From a virus, in IMG/VR virus record IMGVR_UViG_3300047476_001180, positions 1 to 64,000 of that record: a DNA stretch of 64,000 nt. One strand, 5' to 3'. Numbering within the stretch: the stretch's first letter is position 1; each line of letters starts with the position of its first letter. A program made the position numbers and the translations under genes. Positions 7,877 to 52,770 of this stretch are shown here, one piece after another. Under the pieces are notes generated by a model, which worked only from the letters and a program-made list of their open reading frames with translations, ran no database searches and was not told where the DNA came from.

Positions 7877-8593
7877 ATGAATTTCAAAGAATTGACCGAA
7901 CATATAGTAGTCAAAGAGGCTTTGTTAAAGCGACGAGACTCTTTACATGATTATACTGCGTACTTAAAAGAAAGTGGATGGGAGTATATCGGATCGGGAG
8001 CTTATGGAGTTGTGTTTAGTAAACCTAGTAAAAATTATGTATTAAAGGTGTATAGAGATAAAGGATATGATAGTTTTTTACAATTTCTTGAAAAGGAAGC
8101 GAATAATCCCCATTTGGTTAAAATAAAAAGAAAAATAATATCATCTAATAGTGAAGATTTTCTCGGAGTCGTCGCCCTTGAGAAATTAAAACCCATCGAG
8201 GAGACTAAATATAGATGGATTTCGCGATTAACTGCGGAATTTGGGCAGACATTATCTACATCGTCTATACACACTTCGTTCGAAAACGCTTTACAATCTT
8301 TTAGGGATACATATATAAATGAAAATGAAATCGGACGACAGAATCTTAAAACGAGACTGAATTTGCATCCGCGACTTAATGAATATGCCAGAAAAGAATA
8401 CGGTATAAAAAGAAGATCGTTAGACCGCCTCGACTTCTTTATTGAAAACTATTTACCTATCGCAAAAACGTTATATAATTTAATGTTATATGTTAGGCGA
8501 AATAATCTTGGCATGTATTTTGATATACATTTAGGTAATTTCATGATCAGACCTTCTACAAATGAGATAGTTATAACCGATCCGTTGGTTTAA
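7877..8593 (+). CDS. Protein-kinase-like fold protein with capsid-targeting-like N-terminus
   Basis: 238 residues. A glycine-rich loop GSGAYGVVF (residues 39-47) and a VLKV lysine (Lys57) match the kinase N-lobe. Near the C-terminus FDIHLGNFMI gives Asp216, His218 and Asn221 of a catalytic loop, and ITDPLV places Asp235 where the metal-binding Asp of DFG would be, three residues from the end. This is the pattern of small kinase-like proteins, with key residues kept. The first 14 residues, MNFKELTEHIVVKE, match the N-terminal peptides of the 45-50 kb genes and end in a hydrophobic-x-Glu site. I infer a head-packaged, injected kinase. Substrate unknown. The 3' end overlaps the small terminase gene tail-to-tail by 4 bases. 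Confidence 0.7.
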   Translation: MNFKELTEHIVVKEALLKRRDSLHDYTAYLKESGWEYIGSGAYGVVFSKPSKNYVLKVYRDKGYDSFLQFLEKEANNPHLVKIKRKIISSNSEDFLGVVALEKLKPIEETKYRWISRLTAEFGQTLSTSSIHTSFENALQSFRDTYINENEIGRQNLKTRLNLHPRLNEYARKEYGIKRRSLDRLDFFIENYLPIAKTLYNLMLYVRRNNLGMYFDIHLGNFMIRPSTNEIVITDPLV

Positions 8594-13164: not shown

Positions 13165-14055
13165 TTATTTTCTGTATTTCATACCCTCAACATACATATC
13201 CATTGGGTCATTTGAGATATTTGTACGTGATTGGTTATGTTCAGTGTTTTCTTTTATTATTTCATCGGCTACCCTTGTCCGATCAACGTTTAGATTTTTA
13301 CCTTCATTGATTAATGCCGAACGTTTTTCCTGTTTTTGGGAACGTTTATACAAATCAAGGACATATTGGAAATTTTCTTTGATAAATTCTGGCGACTTTC
13401 CTTCTAAGCGACTGCGAACGAATTTCGCAACATTGCTAGGGAGATTGGAAACCTTTTTAGTGAGAATATTTTTACTCTCTTCCATGAGTTGGTATTTTTT
13501 AAGTTCGGCGTTCTCTTTTACAAGAGTGTCTACTTGTTTTTTACCATCCACTAAGGCTTCTTTTATATTATTCTTAATAAACTTTTCATCCACACCAAGA
13601 ATCTTACGAGCCTCTTCGATCTGTTTAAGTGCATATTGATTTCTTGCTGCTTCTGCGATATGTTCACGCGGGAGATTTTTTTCAATATACATGTCGATAA
13701 ATTCATCAACACTTTCTAGAATAAAGTCACGATGTTGAATCGCGGTTTCTTTTAGAATTTTTTCATGTTGTTCTTTAATCTGGTTAAGTTTATCGATGTG
13801 ATCCTTGTTGATATGTTCGACGACCTGTTTAATTTTTGCAGTGTGGTCCTTGTCGATATTCTCAAGAACGATTTTACTAGCACGTTCAAATCTTTCCAAT
13901 TGTAATTTAAGTGCATTTTCTACTTCGAGTGCAGAACGCGCTTCAACTTTTGCATTAACCTTTTCTTCTACAAGAGAAGCAATATTTTTGAGTATATCTT
14001 CGGAGAGAATCTCAGAATCTACCTTTTCGAATATAGTTTTTAATTCGTTTATCAT
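13165..14055 (-). CDS. 22: Prohead core scaffold protein (T4 gp22-like)
   Basis: 296 residues, almost all predicted helix with long heptad-like stretches (residues about 30-120 and 165-200), rich in Lys and Glu. Composition, length and place between protease and capsid genes match T4 gp22, which forms the scaffold core and is degraded by the prohead protease. Several hydrophobic-x-Glu sites are present, for example EILSE near residue 18 and FILES near residue 112. Late box TATAAATA six bases before the start. Confidence 0.8.
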   Translation of the reverse strand: MINELKTIFEKVDSEILSEDILKNIASLVEEKVNAKVEARSALEVENALKLQLERFERASKIVLENIDKDHTAKIKQVVEHINKDHIDKLNQIKEQHEKILKETAIQHRDFILESVDEFIDMYIEKNLPREHIAEAARNQYALKQIEEARKILGVDEKFIKNNIKEALVDGKKQVDTLVKENAELKKYQLMEESKNILTKKVSNLPSNVAKFVRSRLEGKSPEFIKENFQYVLDLYKRSQKQEKRSALINEGKNLNVDRTRVADEIIKENTEHNQSRTNISNDPMDMYVEGMKYRK

Positions 14056-14574: not shown

Positions 14575-15082
14575 AATAGCATATAATATACCAAGGAGAA
14601 TGGCTCTCAATGCCACATATCAAGATCCTGAAAAACATGCATGGATTTCTATCCAAGAACCTGATGATGAACATATAGCCAGTAAATTGGACGCATGTCC
14701 CAACTTAAAGTTAAAGTTCTGGGATGTTACCATACCTCTACAGGATTTGCTCGATCCCGAAGAATATTATTATCCTGCATCAGACGAAGATATTCGAGAT
14801 ATTTTTCAGTTTTTGATGCTTCATAAAGATAAACATATTATAAGTAATTGTGCGGCAGGAGTTTCGCGTAGTGGTGCAATTTCTCGATTCTGTCATGAAT
14901 TCTTAGGACATGAATGGGACCAAGAAAGTCGCAACAGGAGTTATGCACATATTGGACCGAATAAGTATATATTCGAAAAATTAGTAGAAGAGTGGAATAG
15001 GTACCACCAACTGAATAATCAGTATGATCCTCCTAAACCAACACCACTTATAGTAAATGATAAACGTAGAAAGTTTGATTAA
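14567..15082 (+). CDS. Dual-specificity/tyrosine phosphatase-like protein
   Basis: 171 residues. The P-loop is SNCAAGVSRSG with Cys95 and Arg101, fitting the CxxGxxR signature of cysteine phosphatases. The usual His before the Cys is Asn here, which may weaken catalysis. FWDVTIPL and an upstream Asp-rich segment could supply the general-acid Asp. The gene overlaps the thioredoxin gene (8 bases) and its 3' end overlaps the convergent gene at 15079 by 4 bases. A phosphatase and a kinase-like protein (7877) in one phage suggest control of phosphorylation, but targets are unknown. Confidence 0.75.
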   Translation: MSKIAYNIPRRMALNATYQDPEKHAWISIQEPDDEHIASKLDACPNLKLKFWDVTIPLQDLLDPEEYYYPASDEDIRDIFQFLMLHKDKHIISNCAAGVSRSGAISRFCHEFLGHEWDQESRNRSYAHIGPNKYIFEKLVEEWNRYHQLNNQYDPPKPTPLIVNDKRRKFD

Positions 15083-15279
15083 TTTTCTACGTATTTTTTA
15101 AGCTTCTTATAATACAAAGGCTCTTCGTCAAGATGAGCCTTTGTTATTTTTGCTATGTCGGCTTTGTTTCCGTGAGTAACATCATTGTGTTCTTTTTCCA
15201 CGTCCAATCCCGAATTAACTTCAGACTTACCATATTTCTTGGTAAGATTTTTTACAATTTTATCAAATTCCGAAGTCAT
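15079..15279 (-). CDS. Small head-block protein, DUF5661-like
   Basis: 66 residues. The core VEKEHNDVTHGNKADIAKITKAHLDEEPLYYKKL (positions about 26-61) fits the DUF5661 pattern of VE.EH ... IA..HL.E.PdYY..L as I remember it. The N-terminus MTSEFDKIVKNLTKKYG resembles the shared tag peptides but has no clear Glu cleavage site. Third gene of the protease operon, its start overlapping the previous stop (ATGA). Internal-head or core function is inferred only from position. Confidence 0.65.
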   Translation of the reverse strand: MTSEFDKIVKNLTKKYGKSEVNSGLDVEKEHNDVTHGNKADIAKITKAHLDEEPLYYKKLKKYVEN

Positions 15280-15513: not shown

Positions 15514-16200
15514 TTATAACGATTTTAGGAATGTTGCTAAACTTTCGACAATATGTTTTTTGATATCGTCGCGATGATGGGAAGGATACTTGGATAATTT
15601 CTTTTCAAGTTTCTCATATGCTTCTGCAACATATCCGTCATCACCTATAATATAGGACTTGTTTTCGAGAATTCCATTAACAAATTCAGAATTTGCACTA
15701 GGCTCATAAACTGCATCCACTGAAACTATAAGAGGTGATTTAACGTAATGTGCATCTGAATTAGAAGACTCTTCTATACGTCCTAAACATTTTGTAGAAA
15801 GTCCGAAACGCATATTATGCTTAATCAAACCTTCGAGAATTTTACCAGACGGATTTGAAGTTATAACTTCAGATTTTCCTATATAATAATCAGGGTTATG
15901 TTTATCTCTCTCAAGTGATACTATTTTATGTGCAAGTCTTTCTAATTTAATATCGGGGTCGTTGGAGTGGTTCAATTCCCCTCCTGCGCGATGATTGTTG
16001 ACATATTCTTTTATAAATTTATTAACCGCAGGAGCCATTTCAGATTCCTCGTACACCCTATTATTTTTATTACGACGATTAACCATTATATACTGTCCAG
16101 TAAAATATAATTTCTTTTCATTATCGCGTGATTCTTGGACTGTTTCATATTCCAGGTCATAGAATGGCTGTTCAACAATTAATTTTCTTGATAATATCAT
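15514..16200 (-). CDS. 21: Prohead maturation protease (T4 gp21-like)
   Basis: 228 residues, near T4 gp21 (212). The catalytic motifs of this herpesvirus-like serine protease family are visible: His78 in GGELNHSNDP and Ser135 in RFGLSTKCLG, with VDAVYEPSA following. It cleaves scaffold, capsid precursor and internal proteins after (I/L)-x-Glu sites during head maturation. Candidate self-cleavage sites near its own N-terminus are KLIVE and TVQES. It leads an operon with two small head-block genes. Late box nine bases upstream. Confidence 0.92.
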   Translation of the reverse strand: MILSRKLIVEQPFYDLEYETVQESRDNEKKLYFTGQYIMVNRRNKNNRVYEESEMAPAVNKFIKEYVNNHRAGGELNHSNDPDIKLERLAHKIVSLERDKHNPDYYIGKSEVITSNPSGKILEGLIKHNMRFGLSTKCLGRIEESSNSDAHYVKSPLIVSVDAVYEPSANSEFVNGILENKSYIIGDDGYVAEAYEKLEKKLSKYPSHHRDDIKKHIVESLATFLKSL

Positions 16201-23831: not shown

Positions 23832-24473
23832 ATGGATTTTACAAACACTAAGGATATTTTAGAATTTATCGTCGCCGCAATAACTGTGGCTGGTTTTAGT
23901 ATACCTATATATACCTATATGATAAAACCGTGCTGGCTAAGATTCGTATACAACCCTATCATGGGCCACATTTCTAAGATAGATAAAATGGCGGAGACGG
24001 TTAATATTATTAATACCGAAATATTACCAGTTATTCAATCTTTAAATAAAGAGTTCTCAAAAAACAGTGGTAAGTCTATTATGGATAGAATACTACGAAT
24101 AGACGATAATACTCGTTTGGCGGAATTGCGATCCAAGCTTATTGCATCAAATTTAGTAACCACAGGAATGGTTGAGTTTGATAAAACCGGGCAATTGGTA
24201 TGGGCTAATAAAGCCTTTTTAAACATGACTGGCCTTGATTCTGAAAGTGTTAAGTCAAATTCATGGGTTATTAGCATAGAGGAGGATTTTCGGGATAAAG
24301 TGTGGGCATTGTGGCAAAATAGTATAAAGTATAATATACCCTTTGAATCCGAGTTCATAATAAAACACCAACAAACAGGCATAACTGAAGATGTTAAATG
24401 TACTATATATCCCCACAAATCAGTGGATGGAACTATTCTAGGTTATCATGGGACTATTACCCAAACACATTAA
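23832..24473 (+). CDS. Membrane-anchored PAS-domain protein
   Basis: 213 residues. One membrane segment (residues about 10-32, FIVAAITVAGFSIPIYTYMI), a helical linker, then a PAS domain from about residue 103: TGMVEFDKTGQLVWANKAF with the usual NKAFLNMTGL turn, and an end strand GTILGYHGTITQ. No kinase, cyclase or other output domain follows. PAS domains sense small molecules, redox or light, or mediate dimerisation. A late promoter and membrane location would fit a sensor linked to lysis timing or envelope state, but that is inference. 3' overlap of 4 bases with the convergent basic-protein gene. Confidence 0.8.
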   Translation: MDFTNTKDILEFIVAAITVAGFSIPIYTYMIKPCWLRFVYNPIMGHISKIDKMAETVNIINTEILPVIQSLNKEFSKNSGKSIMDRILRIDDNTRLAELRSKLIASNLVTTGMVEFDKTGQLVWANKAFLNMTGLDSESVKSNSWVISIEEDFRDKVWALWQNSIKYNIPFESEFIIKHQQTGITEDVKCTIYPHKSVDGTILGYHGTITQTH

Positions 24474-24769
24474 CCTTTACGTCTTCTTAAACGACGTTTG
24501 CGATTAGCAGCAGCCCGTCTTGCTAGACGACAATCTTCATATTTCGAAGTGCCATATCTAGGATCATTCTTACATTTATCCAACGTAAGAGGTTCTCCAC
24601 GACGAAGATAATAAATTCTTTTATATCCAGCGGTGTAGGGATTTGGCGCACATCTACTAAACACATAACGAGGATTATCAGATAATTGTGGAAGTGTAGG
24701 CCCAGTACAACGAGGTTTTTTACCCTCATGTAATAGGTTGTAAACAAATTCGTCAAATTTCTCGGTCAT
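24470..24769 (-). CDS. Basic internal-head-type protein with targeting-like N-terminus
   Basis: 99 residues. The N-terminus MTEKFDEFVYNLLHE ends in a hydrophobic-x-Glu site and is followed by GKKPRC. The C-terminus is extremely basic (RLARRAAANRKRRLRRRKG). Small basic proteins with a cleavable N-terminal peptide are exactly what T4 packages in its head (internal proteins), so a DNA-bound internal head protein is the best reading. A CxxxPNPYT...YGTSKYEDCR segment may form a small cysteine-containing fold. Late box AATAAGTA six bases upstream. Confidence 0.7.
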   Translation of the reverse strand: MTEKFDEFVYNLLHEGKKPRCTGPTLPQLSDNPRYVFSRCAPNPYTAGYKRIYYLRRGEPLTLDKCKNDPRYGTSKYEDCRLARRAAANRKRRLRRRKG

Positions 24770-38199: not shown

Positions 38200-38207
38200 T
38201 ATTTATA
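38200..38207 (-). promoter_or_regulatory. Late promoter box TATAAATA
   Basis: Five bases before the ATG at 38194. Confidence 0.7.
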
Positions 38208-39333
38208 TATGATTATCATTCGACCATAAGATATGTCTATCATCCGTCTCATTATCCCATTCAATAGTTTTTATATTATTCTCTATACATATATCTATAA
38301 TACTTTGTATTCTTTTCGGCTTCTCTCCAATTTTATGGCAATATACTGTACCACGAAATGCGGTTATTCGGGACCACCCTCGTTTGAATAACTCGTTTAT
38401 AATAGAATCATATTTCTTAATTTTATTTGTATCTATTCCTTTAGTTTGGAGATATTTATCTGCCCAATCCCCATGACTGATGTGTATAGGAATATATTCT
38501 CCATCAGGTTTCAACCAACCATATAAATGTCCCTGAGACTCTGTTAAAACTGTATTCACAAAATTTGTAAATGAATCACCTATTACATTTTTCTTTTTAT
38601 AGTAATCCGGCATTATATTTAAATCCATATCACGAACTTGTTTAGTCGCCGCACTTACCTGTGGCACCTGTTCTTCTTCTAAACCAGAAACATTACCACG
38701 TTCCATATCATCTAGAGTTATGGTATATCTTTTTCCTGTATATGTGGAGATATGATATTCTACTTGTCCCGCCTTTTCATACGAATCGTCCTCATACATA
38801 TCACCTTCCTGTTCAAGTGCATCGTTTATACCTTTTGCAACGTTTTTAAGAGTGACGGCATTTAGTTTATTAACTTCTATATGAGTCCCTGCAACTCGAA
38901 TCCAGTTCCAGTTTTTAATCGCATATTCGCGGGCATCCATAGATGATGAACCATATGCAGTAAAAACCAAATCCGATGCTTTATCTTCAGGAACGTTACA
39001 ATTTAATACTAGATATTTTATAATAGCTCTGGCAGGATCGTCTTCAATATCCCACCCCCACGAATCTCCAACTTCGTCCTTTATTATTTCAACAATCTGA
39101 TCCTCTTTAATGGCAAACTCATCAGTGGTTACATCAAAGTCTAGATTAAACCATGCTAGAACTTCATTAATACAACGCTGAATAACATATTCTTCATGAC
39201 CCATATCACCAACATCACCATCAGCATATTGTGCATTACCGTGTTCGTCGAACCAATACTCTCCAGTTATTTTTGGAGCATCTTGGTTTTCTTTAATAAT
39301 TTTTGATATAAAATTATCGAAGAGTTGTGTCAT
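38203..39333 (-). CDS. Two-part protein with two capsid-targeting-like peptides
   Basis: 376 residues. The N-terminus MTQLFDNFISKIIKE is a tag-like peptide ending in Ile-Lys-Glu. A second copy of the pattern occurs inside the protein near residues 250-264 (DSFTNFVNTVLTES). If the prohead protease cuts both, two separate products result: an acidic first part (residues about 16-260, including DSWGWDIEDDPARAIIKYL) and a second part of about 110 residues starting SQGHLYGWLKPDGEYIPIH. The second part might be an ancestral separate gene fused in frame. No enzymatic motif recognised. Late box TGTAAATA five bases upstream. Confidence 0.65.
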   Translation of the reverse strand: MTQLFDNFISKIIKENQDAPKITGEYWFDEHGNAQYADGDVGDMGHEEYVIQRCINEVLAWFNLDFDVTTDEFAIKEDQIVEIIKDEVGDSWGWDIEDDPARAIIKYLVLNCNVPEDKASDLVFTAYGSSSMDAREYAIKNWNWIRVAGTHIEVNKLNAVTLKNVAKGINDALEQEGDMYEDDSYEKAGQVEYHISTYTGKRYTITLDDMERGNVSGLEEEQVPQVSAATKQVRDMDLNIMPDYYKKKNVIGDSFTNFVNTVLTESQGHLYGWLKPDGEYIPIHISHGDWADKYLQTKGIDTNKIKKYDSIINELFKRGWSRITAFRGTVYCHKIGEKPKRIQSIIDICIENNIKTIEWDNETDDRHILWSNDNHI

Positions 39334-39840
39334 TTAGTTATTTACAGTTCCTTTGGGTTGTTTCCCGTTGTTATATTCGTTCTCTAATTTAGAACCACGA
39401 TCTAATTTTGGTTTTGCAACGAATTGATCATCAATAGGATGTTGCATAATATCAGAGGAAGATGTATGGGTTTTTAGAATAGAACATGGTACAGAGATAA
39501 TACCAGTATACAATCCGGGAACTTTATGATTTACAAGGTCTGCCTCTTCAGGATGGCTTGATGGAGATTCTGACAAATATCCAGAAGTTGTACGCAATGT
39601 TTTAAGTGCCGACACATACATTACCATTTTATCTGCCGCCATTTTATCAAGTTGGGCGAGATAAGTTGCGCCTTTTTTAGTTGTTAAATCTCTGCGAATA
39701 TCTTGATTTTTAAGAGCTTCTGGGTCCAAAACCACAAAGCTTCCCGGATTTATCTTATTAGGATCACAACTTTCAACTATAGTTTGAAATATGGATTCTG
39801 GATTATATTTTTCAAGAAGTTCTTCGATTTTATTAGTCAT
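39334..39840 (-). CDS. Structural protein of unknown function, possible targeting N-terminus
   Basis: 168 residues. IEELLEKYNPESIFQTIVES near the N-terminus contains IVE followed by Ser, a possible prohead protease site, though the peptide matches the shared tag less well than others. The middle (FVVLDPEALKNQDIRRDLTTKKGATYLAQLDKM) is helical. Late-box controlled, divergent from the gp25-like gene. No family recognised. Confidence 0.6.
   Translation of the reverse strand: MTNKIEELLEKYNPESIFQTIVESCDPNKINPGSFVVLDPEALKNQDIRRDLTTKKGATYLAQLDKMAADKMVMYVSALKTLRTTSGYLSESPSSHPEEADLVNHKVPGLYTGIISVPCSILKTHTSSSDIMQHPIDDQFVAKPKLDRGSKLENEYNNGKQPKGTVNN
39339..39346 (-). promoter_or_regulatory. Late promoter box TGTAAATA
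   Basis: Five bases before the ATG at 39333. Confidence 0.5.
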
Positions 39841-39859: not shown

Positions 39860-39867
39860 TATAAATA
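39860..39867 (+). promoter_or_regulatory. Late promoter box TATAAATA
   Basis: Five bases before the gp25-like ATG at 39873. Confidence 0.7.
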
Positions 39868-39872: not shown

Positions 39873-40343
39873 ATGATAACCATTTCCAACCTTTCAAGTA
39901 AAAAATCGGGTAAATCTAATACCTATTCAGATTTAGATTTAAACTTCGAGGAGAAGAAAGTGTCGTCCAATATTCGAAATGATAATATAGTTGCAGGAAA
40001 TGATTTAGTTGTTTCGACAGATATAGAAGCCATTAAAAATTCTATAAGAAATATCCTGTTCCAGAAAAGACATCTAATTCCAGCAGTGGGAGTAAACCTT
40101 AAAAAATATATAGGTCAGCCCATATCAGAAATGCGAGCACAATCTATCGGGGATGATATTGAACGAGGAATAACATTATTCGAACCTAGAGTTAAAGTTG
40201 AGAAAATATTAGTTCGTTACAACATTGATCAGAGTACATACTTTATAGAACTTAGATTAAAACTTGTTAATTTTTCCGAATCATTAACTATTCTAAATGC
40301 CGCATTTAGTCAACAAGGCGAGTTCACATTTGTAAATAGGTAA
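39873..40343 (+). CDS. 25: Baseplate wedge protein (T4 gp25-like)
   Basis: 156 residues, close to T4 gp25 (132) plus an N-terminal extension. The family pattern is visible: DIEAIKNSIRNILFQKRHLIPAVG, QPISEMRAQSIGDDIERGI, and the conserved FEPR motif followed by VKVEKILV. Gp25 links wedge to central tube and sheath initiation. The gene is followed two bases later by the PKD-domain gene, so they are one transcription unit. Confidence 0.88.
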   Translation: MITISNLSSKKSGKSNTYSDLDLNFEEKKVSSNIRNDNIVAGNDLVVSTDIEAIKNSIRNILFQKRHLIPAVGVNLKKYIGQPISEMRAQSIGDDIERGITLFEPRVKVEKILVRYNIDQSTYFIELRLKLVNFSESLTILNAAFSQQGEFTFVNR

Positions 40344-42220: not shown

Positions 42221-45200
42221 ATGCTAGATTCGCACGTAGACGCTTTTTATAAAATTCTTTTAGAAAAGAATTACTCATATTTTATTCCTCAAGACAAAGA
42301 GCTTCTTCTTTATGATTTTTATATGTTAGTTCATATGAGTGCCTTGGATAAAGAAGGTAGGTTCGAACCAGGAGATAAAAAAGATCCATATGGACAATTG
42401 ACACGAACTTCGACATTATCAATGGGTCTTTCCGAATCTACTAAATTCTCGTTTGAAGAGATTAAAAAACAAGTAATAGATTATTTACAACCAGAGCTTC
42501 TAGAATCTGCATTTTATGCTATATCTTGTGAAATTCGTCACGTATTTGATATAAATACAATACCTGAAATTGTATCTAAATTAAACGATAGTTCAGACTT
42601 TTTTCGCAATTTCCAATATAATTATCAAAAATTGAAGAGTATGCAAGCATTCAAACGTAATACCAGTGGAATGCAGGATATCTTCGATAAAAGACGTAGA
42701 CAATTTAATAAAAAATATGATATAGTTAAAAAAGAAAAAAACCCTTCAAATTTGCAGTATCAAATGTCCTATAAGGCAGTTAAGAAGACATTAAAATCCA
42801 TTAATATGTCTGAGATAGATTTTATAAGATTAGCAGAAAGATCATTTAATGAACTTACATGGAATAGGAGTTATGGCGGAAAGGCATGGGCTAGTATATG
42901 TGATGCTTTTCAAAAATTGTATTATGCAAAGCGTGAGGTGGACCAGATAATTTTTATAGATAACATGTATCATCAGCAACACAATACAGATACTGTGTTT
43001 AATAAATTACAAAGTTATTATAAAAATGGTTACAGTTGGATACTATCTGCATTGAATTTTAAAGCAGATGTGAGAGATACTTGGGATCGTGTTGAACGTA
43101 TTCGTAAAGTTACTGGAAATAAAATACGAAATGTTGATAAGATGTATATCGAGATGTTGAAAGCATCTGGTGATAAAACATGGCAACAATATTACAAAAT
43201 AGAAAATAAGACTGATGAGCAGAAGAAGCTCGAAGATGAATGGCTAGATGATCTCGGTCTGACTGATAGTTCTTCTTCTTTACCCTCTAAATTAAAACAG
43301 AAGTATCATAATCTTGCAAAGGAAGGTATTATTAAATTCAATAATCATTTCAAAGATGGATATGTATATATGGGGACAGGAGACGACAAAGAAAAAAGTA
43401 TTGAACAGGATTTGACGACAACTATACCCGATTTGATATCTAAATATGGATATCAAGGTCTTTACATAGAAGGCGCGAAGGGAAAGATGTCAGATGATGC
43501 GATTTATTCAGGTACAGACGCAGATGGTGAGTATTTCTTAGATGTAGAAACTTGGGAAAAAATATTCGGATCATTACCTTCTAAAGATAAAGTCGCAACT
43601 AAAGACAATAGCTTAGAGAAATTTAAGGAAGAATTTATAAATTATGCAAAACACGGTATAAGAAAAATGTCAAATATTTTAGGTGATAGATACGTCTATA
43701 TAGGTAAAGGATCGAACAAAAAAAGCATTAGAGAACAATTAACAACCCATTTTCCGCATTTACATAATAATATCACAGGTAATATTGGAAAAATGTTTTC
43801 TACGGGTTCCATAAGTATGGGATATTCAGGCTCTACGCCTAATTCTGATTATGTGATGGATAAAACAGCATGGGAAAATATCTTTGGCCCTTTATCTGAC
43901 ATCATAACTAAAAAAGATAAAGAGTTACTTGCGAAACTGGAAGATGATACCTCTAGAAAAACATTAGAAGACTTCAAGGAACTGGGGCCGAGTATATTTC
44001 CAAAAGAACCGAGCATCGTAAACGGTAATTTTATATATACGGGGAGAGGTAAGGATGTGAAAAACCTTTTAAATTCTATAAAGAATAATAATTTAGTGTC
44101 CCTCTTGAAAATCCATTATGCGACACGTTTTAAGGACTGGGCTGTTGATCCGATTTCATATAAAGATTTAGAGGATGATTACTATACTTGTATCGCATTG
44201 AGCGATTGGAACGATTTAGTACATATACTCAAGAACTCCCAAGTAGGTGATAAGAAACCGAAACCACCAGTTTCATTTGATAGAATTAAAGAATATGGAA
44301 AAATATTATTCACTGTATCAACGGGTATACTAACTGGATCATATGTATATGTAGGTTTAGGAAAGGACTCAAAGAAATATATAACAACACTAAGTCCTAA
44401 TTATAAAACAGACAAAACTTATGTGGTATACCAGTCAGAACTAACAGGAAAGCTATGCGAATGGAAACCGGTAAAAACCATGGACAGTATAGAAGATAAC
44501 TATCATATTTGCGTAGACCACAAGTACTGGGAACTATATTTTAAAAATAAAGAATCTAATAAAAAAAGAGAACTACCCGAAACAATCGAATATTATAAGA
44601 AACTTGCAAAAGAAGGTAAGAAGAAATTTAATGATTCACATGTGACTAATATGAATGTTGTATATGTCGGACACGGACAAGCCGTTAAAACCGCAATAGA
44701 CCATGGCATACTCCCATATGATACAGAAGATGATAAAAAAGCATATGGGAAATGGTTAACAGTGGGAAAATGGGAGCCATTAACGACTCTTTCTGATATT
44801 TCTTTTGCATATGATGTGTGGATGCTGAATCATCAATGGGTAGAATTGTTCGGTCCTATTGCAGATTTAAAAGATAAGATAGACAAGAAAAGAGTACCTG
44901 CAAGTGCCCGTGCAAAATTTAGAAAAATCGCAAAAGAATATTTAATGGCGGGTAAGTTCTATCATAATTATAAAAAACAACGTCTTATTTATATAGGCGA
45001 TGGGGACATATTAAATGCTGATCCAGATATCCCTAAGATATTAACCTCTGAATATATATATGGTGCTAGTAAGGTGGATGACGATAATGAAATATATTTA
45101 ATGAATGGTATGAAAGGAGATAACGGAGGTATAAATTATTTTACCACTGAAGATAAGTGGGAAGAGTTGTTTGGTCCCCTTCCAAAAATAGAGGATAGTC

Positions 45201-45517
45201 AATCACAGGTAGTTAGTGACGAATATAAAGAATATATGATTATGGCAGCAGAAAGCGGTTATGAATCAGATTATTTCGAACTGATAACGAAGCATGGCTA
45301 TATTTTTATCGGTAATAAAGGTCAAGAATACTTGAGGGAGATTTTAAAAAGGGGGGCTAAAATATATGCTCATAATCATAGCGGTCTTAAAGTACAACCG
45401 AGTGATATGTTTCAAATTTATGATGTATTTAAATATTCACACCAGAACCTTTTCATAAAAAAACGCGACTGGATAAAAATAACCGGAGAACTTCCCCCAC
45501 CAAACCTTACATTCTAA
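42221..45517 (+). CDS. Giant tagged protein with about seven tandem repeats (YVYxGxG ... WExxFGPL)
   Basis: 1098 residues. The N-terminus MLDSHVDAFYKILLEK fits the shared tag with a Leu-Leu-Glu site. Residues about 20-350 are helical and basic. From about residue 360 there are seven diverged repeats of 95-125 residues. Each has a helix (KxLAKEGxxKF), a strand YVYIGKG or variant (GYVYMGTG, RYVYIGKG, NFIYTGRG, SYVYVGLG, VVYVGHG, LIYIGDG, YIFIGNK) and a closing W-x-x-[IL]-F-G-P-[LI] motif (degenerate in the third, fourth and seventh). I do not recognise this repeat. The protein is likely packaged in the head or associated with it. Confidence 0.75.
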   Translation: MLDSHVDAFYKILLEKNYSYFIPQDKELLLYDFYMLVHMSALDKEGRFEPGDKKDPYGQLTRTSTLSMGLSESTKFSFEEIKKQVIDYLQPELLESAFYAISCEIRHVFDINTIPEIVSKLNDSSDFFRNFQYNYQKLKSMQAFKRNTSGMQDIFDKRRRQFNKKYDIVKKEKNPSNLQYQMSYKAVKKTLKSINMSEIDFIRLAERSFNELTWNRSYGGKAWASICDAFQKLYYAKREVDQIIFIDNMYHQQHNTDTVFNKLQSYYKNGYSWILSALNFKADVRDTWDRVERIRKVTGNKIRNVDKMYIEMLKASGDKTWQQYYKIENKTDEQKKLEDEWLDDLGLTDSSSSLPSKLKQKYHNLAKEGIIKFNNHFKDGYVYMGTGDDKEKSIEQDLTTTIPDLISKYGYQGLYIEGAKGKMSDDAIYSGTDADGEYFLDVETWEKIFGSLPSKDKVATKDNSLEKFKEEFINYAKHGIRKMSNILGDRYVYIGKGSNKKSIREQLTTHFPHLHNNITGNIGKMFSTGSISMGYSGSTPNSDYVMDKTAWENIFGPLSDIITKKDKELLAKLEDDTSRKTLEDFKELGPSIFPKEPSIVNGNFIYTGRGKDVKNLLNSIKNNNLVSLLKIHYATRFKDWAVDPISYKDLEDDYYTCIALSDWNDLVHILKNSQVGDKKPKPPVSFDRIKEYGKILFTVSTGILTGSYVYVGLGKDSKKYITTLSPNYKTDKTYVVYQSELTGKLCEWKPVKTMDSIEDNYHICVDHKYWELYFKNKESNKKRELPETIEYYKKLAKEGKKKFNDSHVTNMNVVYVGHGQAVKTAIDHGILPYDTEDDKKAYGKWLTVGKWEPLTTLSDISFAYDVWMLNHQWVELFGPIADLKDKIDKKRVPASARAKFRKIAKEYLMAGKFYHNYKKQRLIYIGDGDILNADPDIPKILTSEYIYGASKVDDDNEIYLMNGMKGDNGGINYFTTEDKWEELFGPLPKIEDSQSQVVSDEYKEYMIMAAESGYESDYFELITKHGYIFIGNKGQEYLREILKRGAKIYAHNHSGLKVQPSDMFQIYDVFKYSHQNLFIKKRDWIKITGELPPPNLTF

Positions 45518-45519
45518 TT

Positions 45520-45527
45520 TATAAATA
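45520..45527 (+). promoter_or_regulatory. Late promoter box TATAAATA
   Basis: Five bases before the ATG at 45533. Confidence 0.7.
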
Positions 45528-45532
45528 TCAAT

Positions 45533-45925
45533 ATGACAAAATTATTCAATGAGTATGTGTCCAACATTTTAGAGAAATGTTGGAAAGGATATAAACAAAA
45601 AGGAATGAAGAAAAAGGGAAAAAGAATTGTTCCTAATTGTATCGAAGAATATCATATAACTGGCGAGGATTTTCAGAGAAAATTATCCCTTGCGGTTTCT
45701 GGTAAAAAAATAAAACTTAAACAATGGGGATTATTCACTGAAATAGATGCAAGTCGGAATGATATTCAAGAAATCTTGAAGAATCTCAAAAAGCAGGGAA
45801 TTATATCTTTTTATCAATATCCTGTGAATGATCCTGCAAAAATTCTTTTGTTTAAAAATGTTCAAGACGTAAAAAGATTATTGAGAGCCGATCCAAATGC
45901 ACTGCAAGGATTTGTGAATTATTAA
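45533..45925 (+). CDS. Tagged basic protein with winged-helix-like tail
   Basis: 130 residues. MTKLFNEYVSNILE matches the shared N-terminal tag and ends in Ile-Leu-Glu. After it comes a strongly basic stretch (KGYKQKGMKKKGKRIVPNC). Residues about 45-120 alternate helices and strands (NDIQEILKNLKKQGIISFYQ) in a way that could be a winged helix. Like the protein at 24470 it has the make-up of a DNA-associated internal head protein. The stop is followed one base later by the next tagged gene. Confidence 0.65.
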   Translation: MTKLFNEYVSNILEKCWKGYKQKGMKKKGKRIVPNCIEEYHITGEDFQRKLSLAVSGKKIKLKQWGLFTEIDASRNDIQEILKNLKKQGIISFYQYPVNDPAKILLFKNVQDVKRLLRADPNALQGFVNY

Positions 45926-45926
45926 T

Positions 45927-47918
45927 ATGAAATTTGAAGAACTCTATAACACACTATTATTAGAAAAAGATAATAGACCAAAAATATTAAAATTAGGAAT
46001 ACCACAAAATGTAGCAGATTATCTACATAGTCTAAGTGATAAATATTCTTTATGGTTTGCGGATAAAATCGCACGTATGCCTGATTATCAAACTGCCCGT
46101 GATAAATTTCGTTATGTGCATAGCCTTCAGACACAAATACAAGGAATTATAGATTGGATCAGAGGGGCACAAAATATTCCAATTAACAACTTTGATTGGA
46201 ATTCTGCACTCAATGCCTCCCGAGAATGGCACGAAAAACTTACCATATCCAATACGTCCCGCGAAACCAATACTATATTGAAAGAATATTCTGATGGTTA
46301 TTATTGGGTAGATTTAGAGAGTTCTTCTGATACTTGTGAAAAAGGTGCAATGGGTCATTGTGCAACGACTAGTAAAGGAGATACATTATACTCTCTTCGA
46401 AAACATAATAGATCTACTAATGAAATTGAATCGTTTATAACTATTGCAGTTTCTCCCGATGAGGGAACTTGGTTTCAGTGTAAAGGAAGAAAGAACTCAA
46501 AACCAAAAGAAGAATATCACAAATATATAGTAGATATATTTGTTACTAAAAATATTTTTAAATTTAAAACTGAGTATGATTCGAGTGCCGATTTTAAACC
46601 TGAAGACTTTGTGAAGTTCTTGGAGGAAAATCCAGATATATATGATAATACCAATGAACTTATAGAGAAGGTTAATGAGGATAAAATAGGATATGAAGAT
46701 TTCGAAAAAATCCTAAAACGTTATGAAGAATCTTTTAAATATATTTTTATTACTCTACACGATGACGACTATGATGATAGCAATTCTATTTATACTAGTT
46801 ATTCTGCTAATATCGAAATTAAAAAGGATAGTACTGATCTCACTTTAGATTGTTTAGACGTTTCGACTAAGGCTGCAAAGGATTATTTAGGAAGAATTCT
46901 AGATGTTAATGTATCAGATGTGGATGTTCAGGAAGGTTATCAAGATAAAAACATAATAAACATATCTATAATTTTAGAGGATGTTGATAATGCTTATAGT
47001 ATGGACGAAGAAGGTCTAGCATCTTTCGAGCGCCAGTGTGAATACTATGACCAGCTTAATGAAAAATTTGACTATGAAGAATTCATGTCAGAACAACTAG
47101 AAAAACTATTAACACTGGATGAATGTATAGAAAATTCATCAATCGAAATAAAGAAAGGTATAGAAAAATTATTTCCTCGAAAAGGTTATTACGAACAGAC
47201 CATTAGAATAGAACAGAAATATCCTAGTTACGATTTAAATTTGGAAATAGTAACGGATAAGAACTTTTATATAGATATCGATAGAGAAGCATATAGTAGT
47301 CAATCACAGTTACGGTCTTATTATGAAGATACGATTGATATAGAAGCTATTGATAAATTTGAGTCTGCGGGCCTTAAAAAAACAAAAGACTCTGATGTAT
47401 TACTACTGTATATGTTTTGGGATTTTATAAAGAGAAATGTTTTAAAACAATATTCTCAAAACATGAGAATAAGATATTTTAAGTCTCAGAAAAGATTCTA
47501 TATTAGGTTTGTTTATGATTTTGATGAGGATTATGATGTTGATGAAGAATTATATCATGTAAAAAGATTCGTAGACTTTTTACCGCTTATGTCAAATGCA
47601 TTTCGGAAATTTATAAATGATGTAATGAGACCGTTCATTGCAACAGTGAAACCCCTTACTATCAAAGACTTTACTTTTGAACCCGGAAACTATGACTCGG
47701 ATTATGTTCATATATACTTAAATGGATACTCCGTAGGTATTGATAATAAGGCTAATATTACTGATGAAAAATTAAAAAATATAATAGCCGATAGAGCAAT
47801 GAAAGGAAGTTATGCATTTCTGGACGAAAATAAAGTAAGAAAATGGTTTAATGATAATTTAGATCCTGAGCCACAATTCTCTAGTATGTTTGAACAATAT
47901 GTAAAAAATTTATTATGA
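45927..47918 (+). CDS. Tagged large protein with PcfJ-like GHC motif
   Basis: 663 residues. The tag MKFEELYNTLLLE is encoded by 23 bases identical to the start of the next gene. Residues about 130-205 contain TCEKGAMGHCATTSKGDTLY, then SLR, FITIAVSPDEGTWFQCKGR and EYHKYIVDIF, resembling the PcfJ-type core (MGHC ... ySLR ... iQ.kG+.N.kP) known from conjugative elements and phages, function unknown. The rest is acidic, with helical and beta stretches. The protein also ends in a tag-like sequence, MFEQYVKNLL. The stop overlaps the next start by 4 bases. Confidence 0.7.
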   Translation: MKFEELYNTLLLEKDNRPKILKLGIPQNVADYLHSLSDKYSLWFADKIARMPDYQTARDKFRYVHSLQTQIQGIIDWIRGAQNIPINNFDWNSALNASREWHEKLTISNTSRETNTILKEYSDGYYWVDLESSSDTCEKGAMGHCATTSKGDTLYSLRKHNRSTNEIESFITIAVSPDEGTWFQCKGRKNSKPKEEYHKYIVDIFVTKNIFKFKTEYDSSADFKPEDFVKFLEENPDIYDNTNELIEKVNEDKIGYEDFEKILKRYEESFKYIFITLHDDDYDDSNSIYTSYSANIEIKKDSTDLTLDCLDVSTKAAKDYLGRILDVNVSDVDVQEGYQDKNIINISIILEDVDNAYSMDEEGLASFERQCEYYDQLNEKFDYEEFMSEQLEKLLTLDECIENSSIEIKKGIEKLFPRKGYYEQTIRIEQKYPSYDLNLEIVTDKNFYIDIDREAYSSQSQLRSYYEDTIDIEAIDKFESAGLKKTKDSDVLLLYMFWDFIKRNVLKQYSQNMRIRYFKSQKRFYIRFVYDFDEDYDVDEELYHVKRFVDFLPLMSNAFRKFINDVMRPFIATVKPLTIKDFTFEPGNYDSDYVHIYLNGYSVGIDNKANITDEKLKNIIADRAMKGSYAFLDENKVRKWFNDNLDPEPQFSSMFEQYVKNLL

Positions 47919-48592
47919 AATTTGAAGAACTCTATAAAATATACACGCTTTTAGAAAGTCCCAATGCGGTCGTCGATCCAAAGACGGGCAATAAAGTATA
48001 TTATTATAACAATGCCCAATCTTGGAGCGGATACTTAGTACAAACGAACCTGGAAGACTCGGTATATACGGGCTATATATTACACACGGATATTGCAGGA
48101 GTTGCAGGACACGAATATTTAAATTGGATTATCAAAGACGGGGCTAATCCCGAAGACGAATACCATAAATGGTTTAAAAGGCTTAAAACAAATATTCCAA
48201 TTGATGATATGCGGAGTCTTTGGATGTCAAATCCGACCATTCAGTTTCGTTTGTGGATTCCTCAAAAGGTTATGTCTTTCTGGCGACCTTGGGGAAAATA
48301 TTATATTCCCGGTATAGAAAATGCATTAAAGGTTATGTTTCAAAAACCTGAAGAATATACCTATGAATTTGACGGGGCTACTGCAAACACTGAAAATGCC
48401 GATTATGCATGTTATGATTATCAGGGATTATTGTCTGGTGAACGGCTTTCTGCTTTCGATGATCGATTAGCTAAACAGAGAGAAGATGAATGGGAAGAAG
48501 ATAAGAAATTACTTGCTCAAATTAAAATGGGTATGAAACCCGCTTTAAATAATAAACCCCGATCTATCTTTAATCAAGGCGAAGGGGATTAA
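47915..48592 (+). CDS. Tagged protein of unknown function
   Basis: 225 residues. Starts MKFEELYKIYTLLES, the shared tag with a Leu-Leu-Glu site. The remainder is Trp/Tyr-rich (QSWSGYLVQTNLEDSVYTGY, IQFRLWIPQKVMSFWRPWGK) with a charged helical C-terminus (LAKQREDEWEEDKKLLAQIK). Overlaps the upstream gene by 4 bases. No known fold recognised. Probably packaged with its neighbours. Confidence 0.65.
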   Translation: MKFEELYKIYTLLESPNAVVDPKTGNKVYYYNNAQSWSGYLVQTNLEDSVYTGYILHTDIAGVAGHEYLNWIIKDGANPEDEYHKWFKRLKTNIPIDDMRSLWMSNPTIQFRLWIPQKVMSFWRPWGKYYIPGIENALKVMFQKPEEYTYEFDGATANTENADYACYDYQGLLSGERLSAFDDRLAKQREDEWEEDKKLLAQIKMGMKPALNNKPRSIFNQGEGD

Positions 48593-48601
48593 GTATATTT
48601 T

Positions 48602-49624
48602 ATGAATTTCCAAGAGTTATATAATTTGATACATGAATCACCTGATAATGCAGAGTTTTGGATTCCCACACAAGGTTTAAAAGATCACATTGAAGTCGAT
48701 TATGAGGCTGAAGAGGCTTATACATTTATCATATTTAAGGGGCAATTATTTTATGCATACACTTCCGATTATTATCACGGAGAGATGATGCATAACATTG
48801 CTGCCTATTTTTTAGGGGATACATATCTTCCTTCCGATATATATAAGATTGGAAAAATTTCTGACAAAGATTTGGAAAATTTTCAATTAAAAGAACAGAG
48901 AATATGGAACCGGTCATCGCTATTATCTGCATATCCCGATGTTATCCAGGGTAGAAGTTGGTACGGGGATCGCGGAGGACTTATCTCTGTTTGGAATGAT
49001 ATTAAATATATTACCCCCGAATATGTCCAACTTATCAAACAATTCATAAAAAAGATCTACGATAAGGATCAAGTCTATCTAGAAGCTGGACATGAAAATA
49101 GTATTCTTATAGATACATTATTACATAATATAAAACCCGAAATCAAAAACAATTTCGATACCTCTGTTGTACATCTCGCCCCACCCGAAAAGAAAAGAGA
49201 AATGCTTCTAAAAATGGGAGCAAAACCAAAAATTCCCTTGGACTTAAAACAAAGACAAGCAATAATGGGGGAGAGTTCTAAACGATCTATACCAATCGAT
49301 TGGGACACCTTAAATTATGAATTTTCCGAAACAGTTAACAATGAATATAAACTAACTTTCTTTAATAAGAATGGTGCAGTAGGATACATAGAATGGGATA
49401 TGGACGACGGAGAAGTTAGTAAAATATATGTAGGAGATATATACCGTCGGCAAGGAGTGGGAACATATATATGGGATGTTGCACAGGAATATGCAAAAGA
49501 TAACCGTTTAATACAACCCGAACATTCTTCCAAACGAACCCAAGAAGGAGATGCCTTTGCACAATCTATCGGAGGTTATATTCCGTCTCTACGAGACGAT
49601 GTTGATGGCTGGAGTTCAAGATAA
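48602..49624 (+). CDS. Tagged GNAT acetyltransferase-like protein
   Basis: 340 residues. Tag MNFQELYNLIHE with a hydrophobic-x-Glu end. Residues about 245-340 look like a GNAT domain: KLTFFNKNGAVGYIEWDM, then VSKIYVGDIYRRQGVGTYIW in which RRQGVG (about residues 282-287) is the acetyl-CoA-binding R/QxxGxG/A motif, followed by the usual helix VAQEYAKD. The N-terminal 240 residues are unassigned, with IAAYFLGDTYLPSD and a likely second domain. If packaged, it could acetylate a host target at infection. Substrate unknown. Confidence 0.7.
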   Translation: MNFQELYNLIHESPDNAEFWIPTQGLKDHIEVDYEAEEAYTFIIFKGQLFYAYTSDYYHGEMMHNIAAYFLGDTYLPSDIYKIGKISDKDLENFQLKEQRIWNRSSLLSAYPDVIQGRSWYGDRGGLISVWNDIKYITPEYVQLIKQFIKKIYDKDQVYLEAGHENSILIDTLLHNIKPEIKNNFDTSVVHLAPPEKKREMLLKMGAKPKIPLDLKQRQAIMGESSKRSIPIDWDTLNYEFSETVNNEYKLTFFNKNGAVGYIEWDMDDGEVSKIYVGDIYRRQGVGTYIWDVAQEYAKDNRLIQPEHSSKRTQEGDAFAQSIGGYIPSLRDDVDGWSSR

Positions 49625-49627
49625 ATA
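49620..49627 (+). promoter_or_regulatory. Late promoter box GATAAATA
   Basis: Six bases before the ATG at 49634, spanning the end of the previous gene. Confidence 0.55.
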
Positions 49628-49633
49628 TCTAAA

Positions 49634-50500
49634 ATGAATTTCCAAGAACTATATGATATCCTAATCAATGAAGATGCAATAGAGAATATTGATATCCAAG
49701 GGGATTGGAATGATAATAAACTTCATGGCTATGATAAAGCATCAATTAAGATGATGCAAAATCCTCTACAAGCTGAACGCATCAAATCTAAATGGTCAAA
49801 ACTCGAAACCCCTATCGATCTATATATCGTCAAAGGAAAAAATTTACACAAATTCTATGAATTAGGTAGAGTTGATTATTATTTTGTAAGAGATAAAATG
49901 GGATTGAATATAAATCACAATGATGACCACATCACTCTTATCTTAACTAACAACAAAGGAGATGAAAAGATTCCGTTAACTCCTTGGACAATTGCTCATA
50001 GATTCGGACATGCATTTGCAAAGGATACAGTTCAAAAACAAGGCTCTGATTATTTCTACAATCAAGTGAGAGGAACTGTGGAAAAATTATTTAAAGAGAT
50101 TGCTCGTATCGTATATGGTCTTAAAACTCTAGATAGAAGAGTTTCTACTGGACCTTATTCTTCTATAATCACACCTGATAGAGAGTTGAAGAAACTCCTT
50201 GCCCAAGCATTGGGAACATTCAAATCTGCAAGAGACAACAATATAAGAAATTCAGAAGAATTTACTAACGAGCTTATTGCACAATATATTATCACCGGAA
50301 AGATAGTATTAAATTCTGAATTACCGAAAATGTTAATTCGAAAATATGCATGGGGAAAACCTCAAGGGATTAACAAACAACAAATGACCATTGAATTGCA
50401 ACAAGAATTAGAGGATACTATCTATGAGTATCAAAATTCTCTGTTTTATGATATTGAATCACTTTTCACCTCGAATATCGGACACATATTTGTGATGTAA
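49634..50500 (+). CDS. Tagged protein with degenerate HxxxH motif
   Basis: 288 residues. Tag MNFQELYDILINE followed by Asp, almost the same as that of the upstream gene. A central motif TPWTIAHRFGHAFA places two histidines as in HExxH metallopeptidases, but the catalytic Glu is Arg, so peptidase activity is doubtful. The rest is helical. It is the last gene of the late block on this strand. Confidence 0.65.
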   Translation: MNFQELYDILINEDAIENIDIQGDWNDNKLHGYDKASIKMMQNPLQAERIKSKWSKLETPIDLYIVKGKNLHKFYELGRVDYYFVRDKMGLNINHNDDHITLILTNNKGDEKIPLTPWTIAHRFGHAFAKDTVQKQGSDYFYNQVRGTVEKLFKEIARIVYGLKTLDRRVSTGPYSSIITPDRELKKLLAQALGTFKSARDNNIRNSEEFTNELIAQYIITGKIVLNSELPKMLIRKYAWGKPQGINKQQMTIELQQELEDTIYEYQNSLFYDIESLFTSNIGHIFVM

Positions 50501-50994: not shown

Positions 50995-52065
50995 TTATGC
51001 ATACTCCTTGACAAGCTTTTCGCCGTAGGCAACGGTTTCCCGGTAGGAATCTTCATCAGTCAGAAGCGTAAGGAAATCTTCCTTGTGCTTTGCAGCCATA
51101 CCGAAATTCCCTACGCTCCAACGCTTGGACTTGTCAGCTTTTGACCCGCCCGCGCCGTCACCATGAGTAAAATACTCAGTGAAGCCGTTGAAGAGGTCAT
51201 AGCGAGATTTCCCAGAGTTACCCATGCCTCGCACGGTAAGTGCCTTAATTTCTTCGGCTCGGTTGTAAGAACGAGTTGAAAGAGATTCAGCCCTTTCACC
51301 TACTCGACCAGAGAGGAAACCAGCAGCGGCATAGGCAGCCTCCGTAGGAGATTCGAGAGTGAGAGTCTGGAGATAATCCATATTCTCCATGATTCTCTGC
51401 CTGCCGTACAGAACACTTTGGAAGTAAGCACCAAGATTTTCGATGCTGGCGGCAGCATTTTTCGTATGGGGGACCGCGACTTTCACAGCACCGTCATAGG
51501 CACGGGACCAGCGGAAAGTGTTCATACATACCACACGAATCATGGAATCCCTCGCCTCGAACATCATCGTACCATCATGAGAGGTAAGAAAGTTCAAGTA
51601 GGAAGAAAACTTATCCCCGTTAGTGGCTTGATACTCGCCCCCGTTAAGATCTACAGAGATGTAGAACTTTTTGCAGTTGTCGAGAGTGCCGATGGTCGTA
51701 ATTTTTACGCCGAGACCCGCAATAGAACGAGTCATACAATCCCAAATTTCCTTATTGGAAATAGGACGGTAGGAATCTTTCGGAGTGTGGAGTGGATGAA
51801 ACGTGCGGAAATGCTCGGGCAAATCTTCGCGGTGGCGAAGGTCAGCTAAGACAGATTTGTAGTCATTCAGATGAATGATTTTCATTTCGGCCTCTCCGGC
51901 ATCATTTACCGTCTCGATCTCGACAGATGGCGTACCTGTCACGATAGGAAAAAAGCAGTTTTTAGCGGTTACTTCGTTGATTTCCGCCTCATGATGCGCT
52001 TTTCCGTGCCATTCCGTTCCTGCGATTGAAACGGTATAATCCAATTCATTAATTTCGTCAGCCAT
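50995..52065 (-). CDS. DUF932-family phage/plasmid protein
   Basis: 356 residues from the ATG at 52065 (MADEINELDY). An alternative ATG at 52107 would add 14 residues of Thr/Asn-rich sequence without support. The order of segments matches DUF932 (phage/plasmid-related TIGR03299 type): HGKAHHEAEINEVTAKN at the start, the block RPISNKEIWDCMTRSIAGLG, the central region LNFLTSHDGTMMFEARDSMIRVVCMNTFRWS, and the C-terminal SKRWSVGNFG. The family is common on phages and plasmids and of unknown function. Base composition is clearly richer in G and C than the late genes, which suggests acquisition from another source. Confidence 0.85.
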   Translation of the reverse strand: MADEINELDYTVSIAGTEWHGKAHHEAEINEVTAKNCFFPIVTGTPSVEIETVNDAGEAEMKIIHLNDYKSVLADLRHREDLPEHFRTFHPLHTPKDSYRPISNKEIWDCMTRSIAGLGVKITTIGTLDNCKKFYISVDLNGGEYQATNGDKFSSYLNFLTSHDGTMMFEARDSMIRVVCMNTFRWSRAYDGAVKVAVPHTKNAAASIENLGAYFQSVLYGRQRIMENMDYLQTLTLESPTEAAYAAAGFLSGRVGERAESLSTRSYNRAEEIKALTVRGMGNSGKSRYDLFNGFTEYFTHGDGAGGSKADKSKRWSVGNFGMAAKHKEDFLTLLTDEDSYRETVAYGEKLVKEYA

Positions 52066-52297
52066 AGTAGTATTTTTTGTAGTGTGGTTTGAGGTTTGAC
52101 TCTGCATTTTTTCGGACTTGTCACCGGGGAAAGTTTCGTTTTGAATCTTTCCGTTGCATTAAACCTTTTTCAGCGGTCCAGCTCGACTGCTACGCAGTTT
52201 CATCGCTATTTGTTTGCAGGGACAAGAGGCTTGTCGATCTTGCGGGGACTTGTTATCCCGCTCACGTCTCTTTCCACCGCCATTCTAATACATGGCC

Positions 52298-52521
52298 GAA
52301 CCTTTGCAAGTGATTTCTGTTCTTTTTCGATTCTTTTTCTTTTTCCCTCATAAATGCCCTTTTAAACGCCTTCACCCTCTCCCCGGTATTCCGACACTTT
52401 CCAAGCATTTAAACGCCTAGAATGGCAAGCAATCCATAAGCCTTGCCAAGTACCGGGGATTCCTCTTTTTATCATTCCTCACTTTTCTTTTTCCATTTCA
52501 TTTTTTCACTTGCAAAGGTTC
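52298..52521. repeat. Nested inverted repeats (16, 9 and 7 bp stems)
   Basis: Outer arms GAACCTTTGCAAGTGA (52298-52313) and TCACTTGCAAAGGTTC (52506-52521) are perfect complements. Inside are TCCCCGGTA (52380-52388) with TACCGGGGA (52451-52459), and innermost TGGCAAG (52423-52429) with CTTGCCA (52442-52448). The three pairs nest without crossing. Confidence 0.75.
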
Positions 52522-52770
52522 AAGTGCTGTTTATTATGTTCCTGCCGCCCGTTATCGTGTTTTCCCTTGGAAACGTTTTAGGCGGTCAAGCTTTGACTAA
52601 CTTTGACACAGTTGGTACTGTCTTGAGTCGAAACGTTCGCAAGGGTTTTAGTTGCCTCTGGCCAGAGCGAGACAGTTTTTAGATTTAGATTCTTTTTTAT
52701 TTGACAGATGGGGTTTCCTCTCCACTGTATCCATACCGAAGGACGGCACATTTTCCCCTCCCAGCCGGTC

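Follow-up and report, generated by a model that had tools for sequence, protein, structure and literature searches.

Short N-terminal peptides resembling T4 capsid-targeting sequences on candidate packaged proteins of an uncultured T4-like phage

The 64,000-nucleotide stretch analysed here, hereafter the window (positions 1 to 64,000 of IMG/VR record IMGVR_UViG_3300047476_001180, most of that 66.6-kb virus record), encodes a T4-like myovirus whose terminase is 30-37% identical to those of T4-like phages of cyanobacteria, rhizobia and others, and whose other T4-like genes include those for a portal, a tail tube, a tail-sheath stabiliser and gp25-like and gp6-like baseplate proteins. The subject of this analysis is a group of its proteins that share an N-terminus of 12-15 residues ending in hydrophobic-x-Glu (the tag), which the first-pass annotation had proposed to be a removable peptide that carries proteins into the prohead. 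All nine tagged open reading frames (ORFs) and N-termini were found where that annotation had placed them. Two styles of tag can be distinguished, MTxxFDxFVxxLLxE and MKFxELYxLLxE. The genes are listed below and named by their left coordinate; scores are those of a position matrix trained on 43 tags from relatives only and then run on the window.

7877..8593 (+): tagged kinase-like protein; tag MNFKELTEHIVVKE at 7877-7918, putative cleavage behind LTE8 or VKE14
24470..24769 (-): tagged small basic protein; tag MTEKFDEFVYNLLHE at 24725-24769; score 21.3
38203..39333 (-): two-tag protein; N-terminal tag MTQLFDNFISKIIKE at 39289-39333, score 17.3; internal tag SFTNFVNTVLTE at residues 254-265 (38539-38574), score 13.4
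42221..45517 (+): tagged 1098-aa protein with repeated modules; tag MLDSHVDAFYKILLE at 42221-42265; score 12.4
45533..45925 (+): tagged small basic protein with a CWKGY motif; tag MTKLFNEYVSNILE at 45533-45574; score 14.5
45927..47918 (+): tagged 663-aa protein; tag MKFEELYNTLLLE at 45927-45965; score 18.7; ortholog G008_27923
47915..48592 (+): tagged 225-aa protein; tag MKFEELYKIYTLLE at 47915-47956; score 13.5
48602..49624 (+): tagged two-domain protein with a C-terminal GNAT domain; tag MNFQELYNLIHE at 48602-48637; score 16.4
49634..50500 (+): tagged 288-aa protein with a conserved H-R-x-G-H motif; tag MNFQELYDILINE at 49634-49672; score 15.3
39334..39840 (-): possible further tagged protein; MTNKIEELLEKYNPESIFQTIVE, with a longer leader

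A query with the capsid protein retrieved 34 loci in viral contigs at 53-100% identity, and most of these contigs, with genes called on them, form the set of relatives; they are fragments, gene starts were assigned by simple rules, and G-numbers below denote comparison contigs and L-numbers loci. The same query found no relative in a bacterial and archaeal genome collection, a nucleotide search of phage records with part of the window gave no match, and PADLOC returned none. Tags occur on many non-homologous families in the relatives. Within the window the bodies behind the tags are mostly unrelated, as had been proposed, but the count of at least nine unrelated proteins does not hold: 47915 and 48602 are distant relatives with a common domain family, both homologous to the same polyprotein (G012_7467), so the nine tagged proteins represent eight families.

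The simplest objection is that amphipathic N-termini resemble each other by chance, and a bare [IL]-x-Glu near the start is indeed common, occurring at 16 of 53 starts in the window and also at 11% of internal methionines. A strict tag pattern, by contrast, matched 7 of 53 ATG starts against 0 of 239 internal methionines in the window (p 5e-6) and 50 of 659 starts against 11 of 2736 internal methionines in the relatives (p 3e-26). This pattern was devised after the tags had been seen, so the replication in the relatives and the held-out matrix outweigh the window p-value. A looser, T4-like pattern did not reach significance in the window by itself (p 0.056), and the claim is accordingly based on the stricter core and on that matrix, by which eight of the nine window tags score 12.4-21.3, whereas 2.4 hits per 100,000 residues of shuffled protein reach a score of at least 12. 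Chance resemblance is already refuted by this enrichment, and we give it next to no weight.

The tag is further characterised by the coupling of its Glu to the hydrophobic core F..[FYL][VIYFL]. In the window, hydrophobic-x-Glu follows 8 of 8 N-terminal cores and 3 of 39 internal ones (p 5e-7), and in the relatives the Glu follows 22 of 43 N-terminal against 42 of 398 internal cores (p 1e-9). Being coupled to the core in both data sets, the Glu is part of the signal. The same layout is known from T4, in which the internal proteins start with MKTYQEFIAE (IPII and IPIII) and MKTFKEF (IPI) and Alt with MELITELFDE: a hydrophobic pair three residues apart is followed, at the same spacing, by hydrophobic-x-Glu. 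Mutagenesis of the T4 IPIII tag assigned targeting to residues 4 and 7 and processing to residues 8 and 10, gp21 cleaves after L/I-x-E, and Alt is cut near its C-terminus as well (PMC9026906).

A corresponding protease and a probable core protein are encoded in a head-gene cluster of the window.

15514..16200 (-): gp21-like prohead protease, phrog_207 match at E 1e-36; predicted tag-removing enzyme
11530..13140 (-): gp23-like major capsid protein, phrog_138 E 3e-77
13165..14055 (-): probable scaffold/core protein, by its gp22-like position between the protease and capsid genes
15079..15279 (-): DUF5661 protein, PF18905 E 2e-10

The gp21-like protein at 15514 had been recognised by the first-pass annotation from the letters alone, and its assignment is borne out by the family match and by retention of the T4 gp21 motifs around His (GELNH), Ser (GxSxxxLG) and Asp (VDxVxxPS). 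The capsid site given there also stands: RQLLQE75-A76, with predicted cleavage between LLQE75 and A76 (12916-12927), and [hydrophobic][LIV]QE occupies the capsid cleavage site in nearly all relatives. The 13165 protein matches only weakly a phrog family of unknown function, and its N-terminus is MLTELKSIFESVDKEILSE-like in relatives. At the start of the DUF5661 protein and of its orthologs (MTxxFDKxxxxL..K) there is a tag-like helix but no Glu, a pattern that would fit a helix serving core binding to which a Glu is added for removal. In the same region, the ORF at 9949-11436 (-), beside the capsid gene, looks by eye to be of homing-endonuclease type, and in the relative L095 (G024) the gp21-like protease gene at 7723 (+) contains an intein-like insertion (CVPSNYKILTNNGW... 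to WTGN) that directly follows GELNH, the catalytic His motif.

The Glu-less DUF5661 helix and the position of several tagged genes next to baseplate genes, with the same late promoter, could be taken to mean that the tag is an unremoved docking helix to baseplate, neck or tail and that the tagged proteins are accessory structural components. This explanation leaves the Glu coupling, the match to the capsid cleavage site and the T4 tag layout unaccounted for, as it does the enzymes among the tagged proteins and the tags at polyprotein joints described below, and T4 Alt genes are likewise associated with baseplate genes (PMC5512222). We regard a docking role as improbable.

Promoter placement provides a further line of evidence. 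A T4-type late promoter, TATAAATA, lies 13-14 bases upstream of many start codons, and a late-element matrix built from untagged structural genes located it at 23 of 29 of these genes, at 7 of 9 tagged genes and at 1 of 16 genes of the right-hand block. The tagged genes thus carry the promoter of the head genes, and by this element they would be made late, with the head proteins. Instances lie at 39860-39867 (+), 45520-45527 (+, an exact TATAAATA), 21372-21379 (+) and 14062-14069 (-), with TATAAGTA at -13 of 7877 and CATAAATA at -13 of 42221. The relatives and the pelagiphage HTVC008M have the same -13 peak; most T4 copies of the element are found 21 to 36 bases upstream. A T4-like start-site spacing would put the 5' ends of late mRNAs at or next to the AUG, and given such spacing the late mRNAs would be leaderless. 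Shine-Dalgarno sites are lacking in the window, a weak hint at a Bacteroidota host, and leaderless late genes would explain this lack as well. The right-hand block (50995-64000) is made of small genes; with its G+C higher in part and the late element lacking (1/16), it is probably an early/middle region. Fibre-like repeat proteins are also encoded, at 21385-23802 (+) and 694-1389 (-), with units SNW...TTVQTNSSNW; YLSSTMVSTSATLNTRI.

The similarity of some tags extends to DNA. The first 23 nucleotides of 45927 and 47915 are identical (ATGAAATTTGAAGAACTCTATAA), as had been noticed, and 48602 and 49634 share 24 of their first 30 bases. The 23-base identity suggests copying of a gene 5' end, an indication of limited strength: for identical amino acids, the six codons would agree with a probability of about 0.03, too weak to take copying as proven. 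It would be a further step to regard the shared starts as functionless traces of such recent copying, and we consider this highly improbable, as the tags of relatives differ in DNA and in variable residues yet keep the hydrophobic core and the Glu, and internal tags at fusion joints require no start codon.

The bodies behind the tags include several enzyme-like proteins. The kinase-like assignment of 7877 is upheld by a match to phrog_15752 (T7 gp0.7 kinase) at E 2e-16, and its kinase motifs (G-loop, Lys, HxGN, DP) are invariant in six homologs. Its AlphaFold2 (AF2) model (pLDDT 80.6) gave kinases and aminoglycoside phosphotransferases (APH) as top Foldseek hits at E 2e-4, with TM scores of only 0.2-0.3, and the kinase profile had no match among PDB sequences. 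Most orthologs keep a tag-like start (MNFKQFYKQRTVEEA, MNFKQFYE, MGFSKFFNE, MKYLRFIVE), and the kinase of Rhizobium phage RHph_I1_18 starts with the T4-like tag LKSFSEHIAES; in that phage (L099) two kinase-like genes are adjacent, at 41-1204 and 1201-1866, the second with the T4-like tag. Several other RHph_I1_18 genes start with tags of the ISFK.HLNES type. The GNAT-like call for 48602 is likewise sustained (PF13673, E 7e-6, 26.6 bits against a cut-off of 23.6; PF00583, 23.4 bits against 20.7), whereas the PcfJ-like call for 45927 falls below threshold (PF14284, E 0.002, 18.4 bits, cut-off 25). Among tagged proteins of the relatives we found ART-PolyVal domains (two at E 1e-13 and 3e-14, a third, weaker, at 8e-4), NUDIX proteins, more kinases and a weak metallopeptidase-like protein, and RHph_I1_18 and Cr30 encode small proteins in which a tag is followed by YHGTS and which match PARP/ART models weakly. 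T4 Alt is a known injected ADP-ribosyltransferase.

For the remaining proteins, orthology adds detail. The 24470 tag is retained in five orthologs (one by loose match), the modules of 42221 are related to G012_13823, and 45533 matches two families of unknown function, phrog_4359 (E 7e-9) and phrog_727 (E 7e-8). The 45927 protein also has a tag-like C-terminus, MFEQYVKNLL (47886-47915), which is not conserved in its ortholog G008_27923. For 49634 a single-protein search found no relatives and an alignment-based search found three orthologs, two of them in contigs already in the comparison set, all three keeping a tag-like start and Glu. Its AF2 model (pLDDT 75, and 41 over the first ten residues) matched no PDB fold, a PDB sequence search was not significant, and the H-R-x-G-H motif is insufficient to call it a peptidase. 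In both this model and that of the kinase the tag helix is of low confidence and set apart from the fold. Orthologs of 39334 have leaders ending in hydrophobic-x-Glu or similar, and the one in G012 has a recognisable tag.

This repertoire bears on another alternative, in which packaging and trimming do take place but the tagged proteins serve in the prohead core or in DNA packing and are no injected effectors. In T4, gp21 cuts core proteins too (PMC9026906), and 24470 and 45533 are small and basic, so that the explanation may apply to these two. Structural parts would not be expected to have kinase, GNAT, ADP-ribosyltransferase and NUDIX domains or to come from a variable, strain-specific locus, and for the set as a whole we judge it unlikely, though less so than the other alternatives.

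That locus is defined by two flanking genes, between which G000, G008 and G012 all carry tagged genes of differing content.

39873..40343 (+): gp25-like baseplate gene, left border; phrog_261 E 4e-14; late element at 39860-39867
50995..52107 (-): DUF932 protein, right border; PF06067 E 2e-25

Loci L190 and L191 contain dense runs of tagged genes with, by eye, a DUF932-like gene further on.

The relatives also encode polyproteins in which tags stand at the joints. G012_7467 (1082 aa) begins with a tagged unit and has internal sites GESFKDFFKE, GESFRFKDFFKVLAE and NVNMFTE, whose last residues are at 237, about 466 and 864, respectively. Residues 12-225 of 48602 align with its residues 237-454, which run from one tag's end to where the next tag begins; 47915 aligns, from its residue 14, from position 864 (homologous unit 864-1053); under other BLAST settings both alignments begin a few residues earlier, inside the tag. 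A second copy, 97% identical, lies in contig L190, and a diverged relative in L191 (658 aa) has three tags, its third unit (458-658) being 58% identical to the stand-alone tagged protein G008_20420 from residue 2 of the latter, tag included. In G012_17400 a NUDIX unit is fused to one resembling G008_10111, again aligned from residue 2, and the joint is tag-like but degenerate. The units of G012_7467 and L191 are distinct, and the enzymes identified are only GNAT (48602) and NUDIX (G012_17400). The best cases are in relatives; the window has one internal tag, in 38203, which sits near the C-terminus in the orthologs G012_59203 and G019_6498. A general search for internal tags gave no clear enrichment in tagged over untagged proteins, partly because the classifier had put G012_7467 among the untagged; the polyprotein claim therefore rests on the homology boundaries, which coincide with tags. 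With G012_7467, its L190 copy, L191, G012_17400 and 38203, tag-retaining fusion is recurrent and unlikely to be an assembly artefact. It seems reasonably likely that the tag is a modular delivery joint, such that cargo genes have been exchanged and fused together with their tags in this clade and each polyprotein unit brings its own targeting and cleavage site, from which a gp21-like protease would release it in the prohead, loading several host-acting proteins per polypeptide. We found no description of tag-jointed polyproteins in the open-access papers searched. The internal and C-terminal tags, these polyproteins, the cargo locus and the late promoters had not been part of the first-pass annotation.

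Several observations weigh against interpreting the tags as T4-type targeting peptides. The kinase tag is weak in the window (7877 scores below 8 by the held-out matrix), and the G012 kinase ortholog has no Glu at the usual distance; 21 of the 43 N-terminal cores of the relatives have none. Neither 45927 nor 48602 has a good late-promoter match, both lying in a tight co-directional gene run, and G018 and G020, which have related capsid proteins, make little use of tags, if any. A location in the head, moreover, does not prove ejection. Nevertheless, a removable T4-type capsid-targeting peptide, as originally proposed, is the best-supported reading on several independent lines: the N-terminal enrichment, the coupled Glu, the conservation of protease and capsid site, the late promoters common to head genes, orthologs with tags in the relatives and in a T4-like phage of Rhizobium, and cargo enzymes similar to T4 Alt. 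We therefore consider the shared 12-15-residue N-termini to be very probably capsid-targeting sequences (CTS), whose bearers would be packaged, trimmed and probably injected, and the phage to represent a putative T4-type internal-protein system in a deep, uncultured branch.

From the sequence we infer packaging, cleavage, ejection and host function as follows. The tagged proteins, encoded mainly in the variable locus between the gp25-like and DUF932 genes, would be made late in infection together with the head proteins; the amphipathic helix F..[FYL][VIY] would bind the scaffold core and carry the protein into the prohead, in which the gp21-like protease would cut after the hydrophobic-x-Glu at the tag end and, in relatives, is predicted to cut the polyproteins apart at their tagged joints. 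The mature proteins would remain among the packaged DNA, be ejected into the next host cell and may act there at entry, in take-over or counter-defence.

Tagged internal proteins with unrelated bodies are established in T4, and at least 10 kinds of internal proteins have been reported in T-even phages, T4's three inhibiting different GmrSD nucleases (PMC12373910). Common to T4 IPI-IPIII/Alt and the present set are a gp21-type protease, unrelated bodies and late genes, as well as the ADP-ribosyltransferase in the cargo of relatives. Here, in contrast, the tag is usually one hydrophobic turn longer and comes in two styles, up to about 14 tagged genes occur in one partial genome, the cargo includes kinase, NUDIX and GNAT proteins, tags are found inside polyproteins, and the genome position is another. 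New in this clade are thus the form of the tag, a repertoire rich in enzymes, a conserved locus for cargo and tags at internal positions. Polyvalent proteins of phages and plasmids (Iyer et al. 2017, PMC5512222) combine several host-directed domains in one polypeptide, as the polyproteins here may do, are predicted to be injected and have the ART-PolyVal domain in common with the present system, but the units described here meet at capsid tags that contain predicted prohead-protease sites, and they also exist as separate tagged genes. In phiKZ and SPN3US a relative of gp21 trims, after x-x-Glu, many head proteins that are ejected, yet their propeptides are mostly >100 residues and share no common short tag (PMC5694885). 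In P1, an N-terminal signal brings the antirestriction protein DarB into the head, although signal and head system are unrelated to those here (PMC9024508). The 7877 kinase resembles T7 gp0.7 in sequence family and catalytic motifs. T7 gp0.7 is made early in the infected cell, whereas the tag and late-type promoter of 7877 indicate that this kinase would arrive with the virion.

T4 internal proteins are injected inhibitors of specific host nucleases (PMC12373910), but in other phages injected proteins are identified individually. With a tag that can be recognised, candidate injected proteins can be read from uncultured T4-like genomes; in this case the list comprises a few dozen families, among them ADP-ribosyltransferases, a T7-type kinase, NUDIX and GNAT proteins and many unknowns, each of them a candidate counter-defence or take-over protein. 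Tag-jointed polyproteins would let a phage deliver several proteins from one gene, and would be a template for loading cargo into phage heads.

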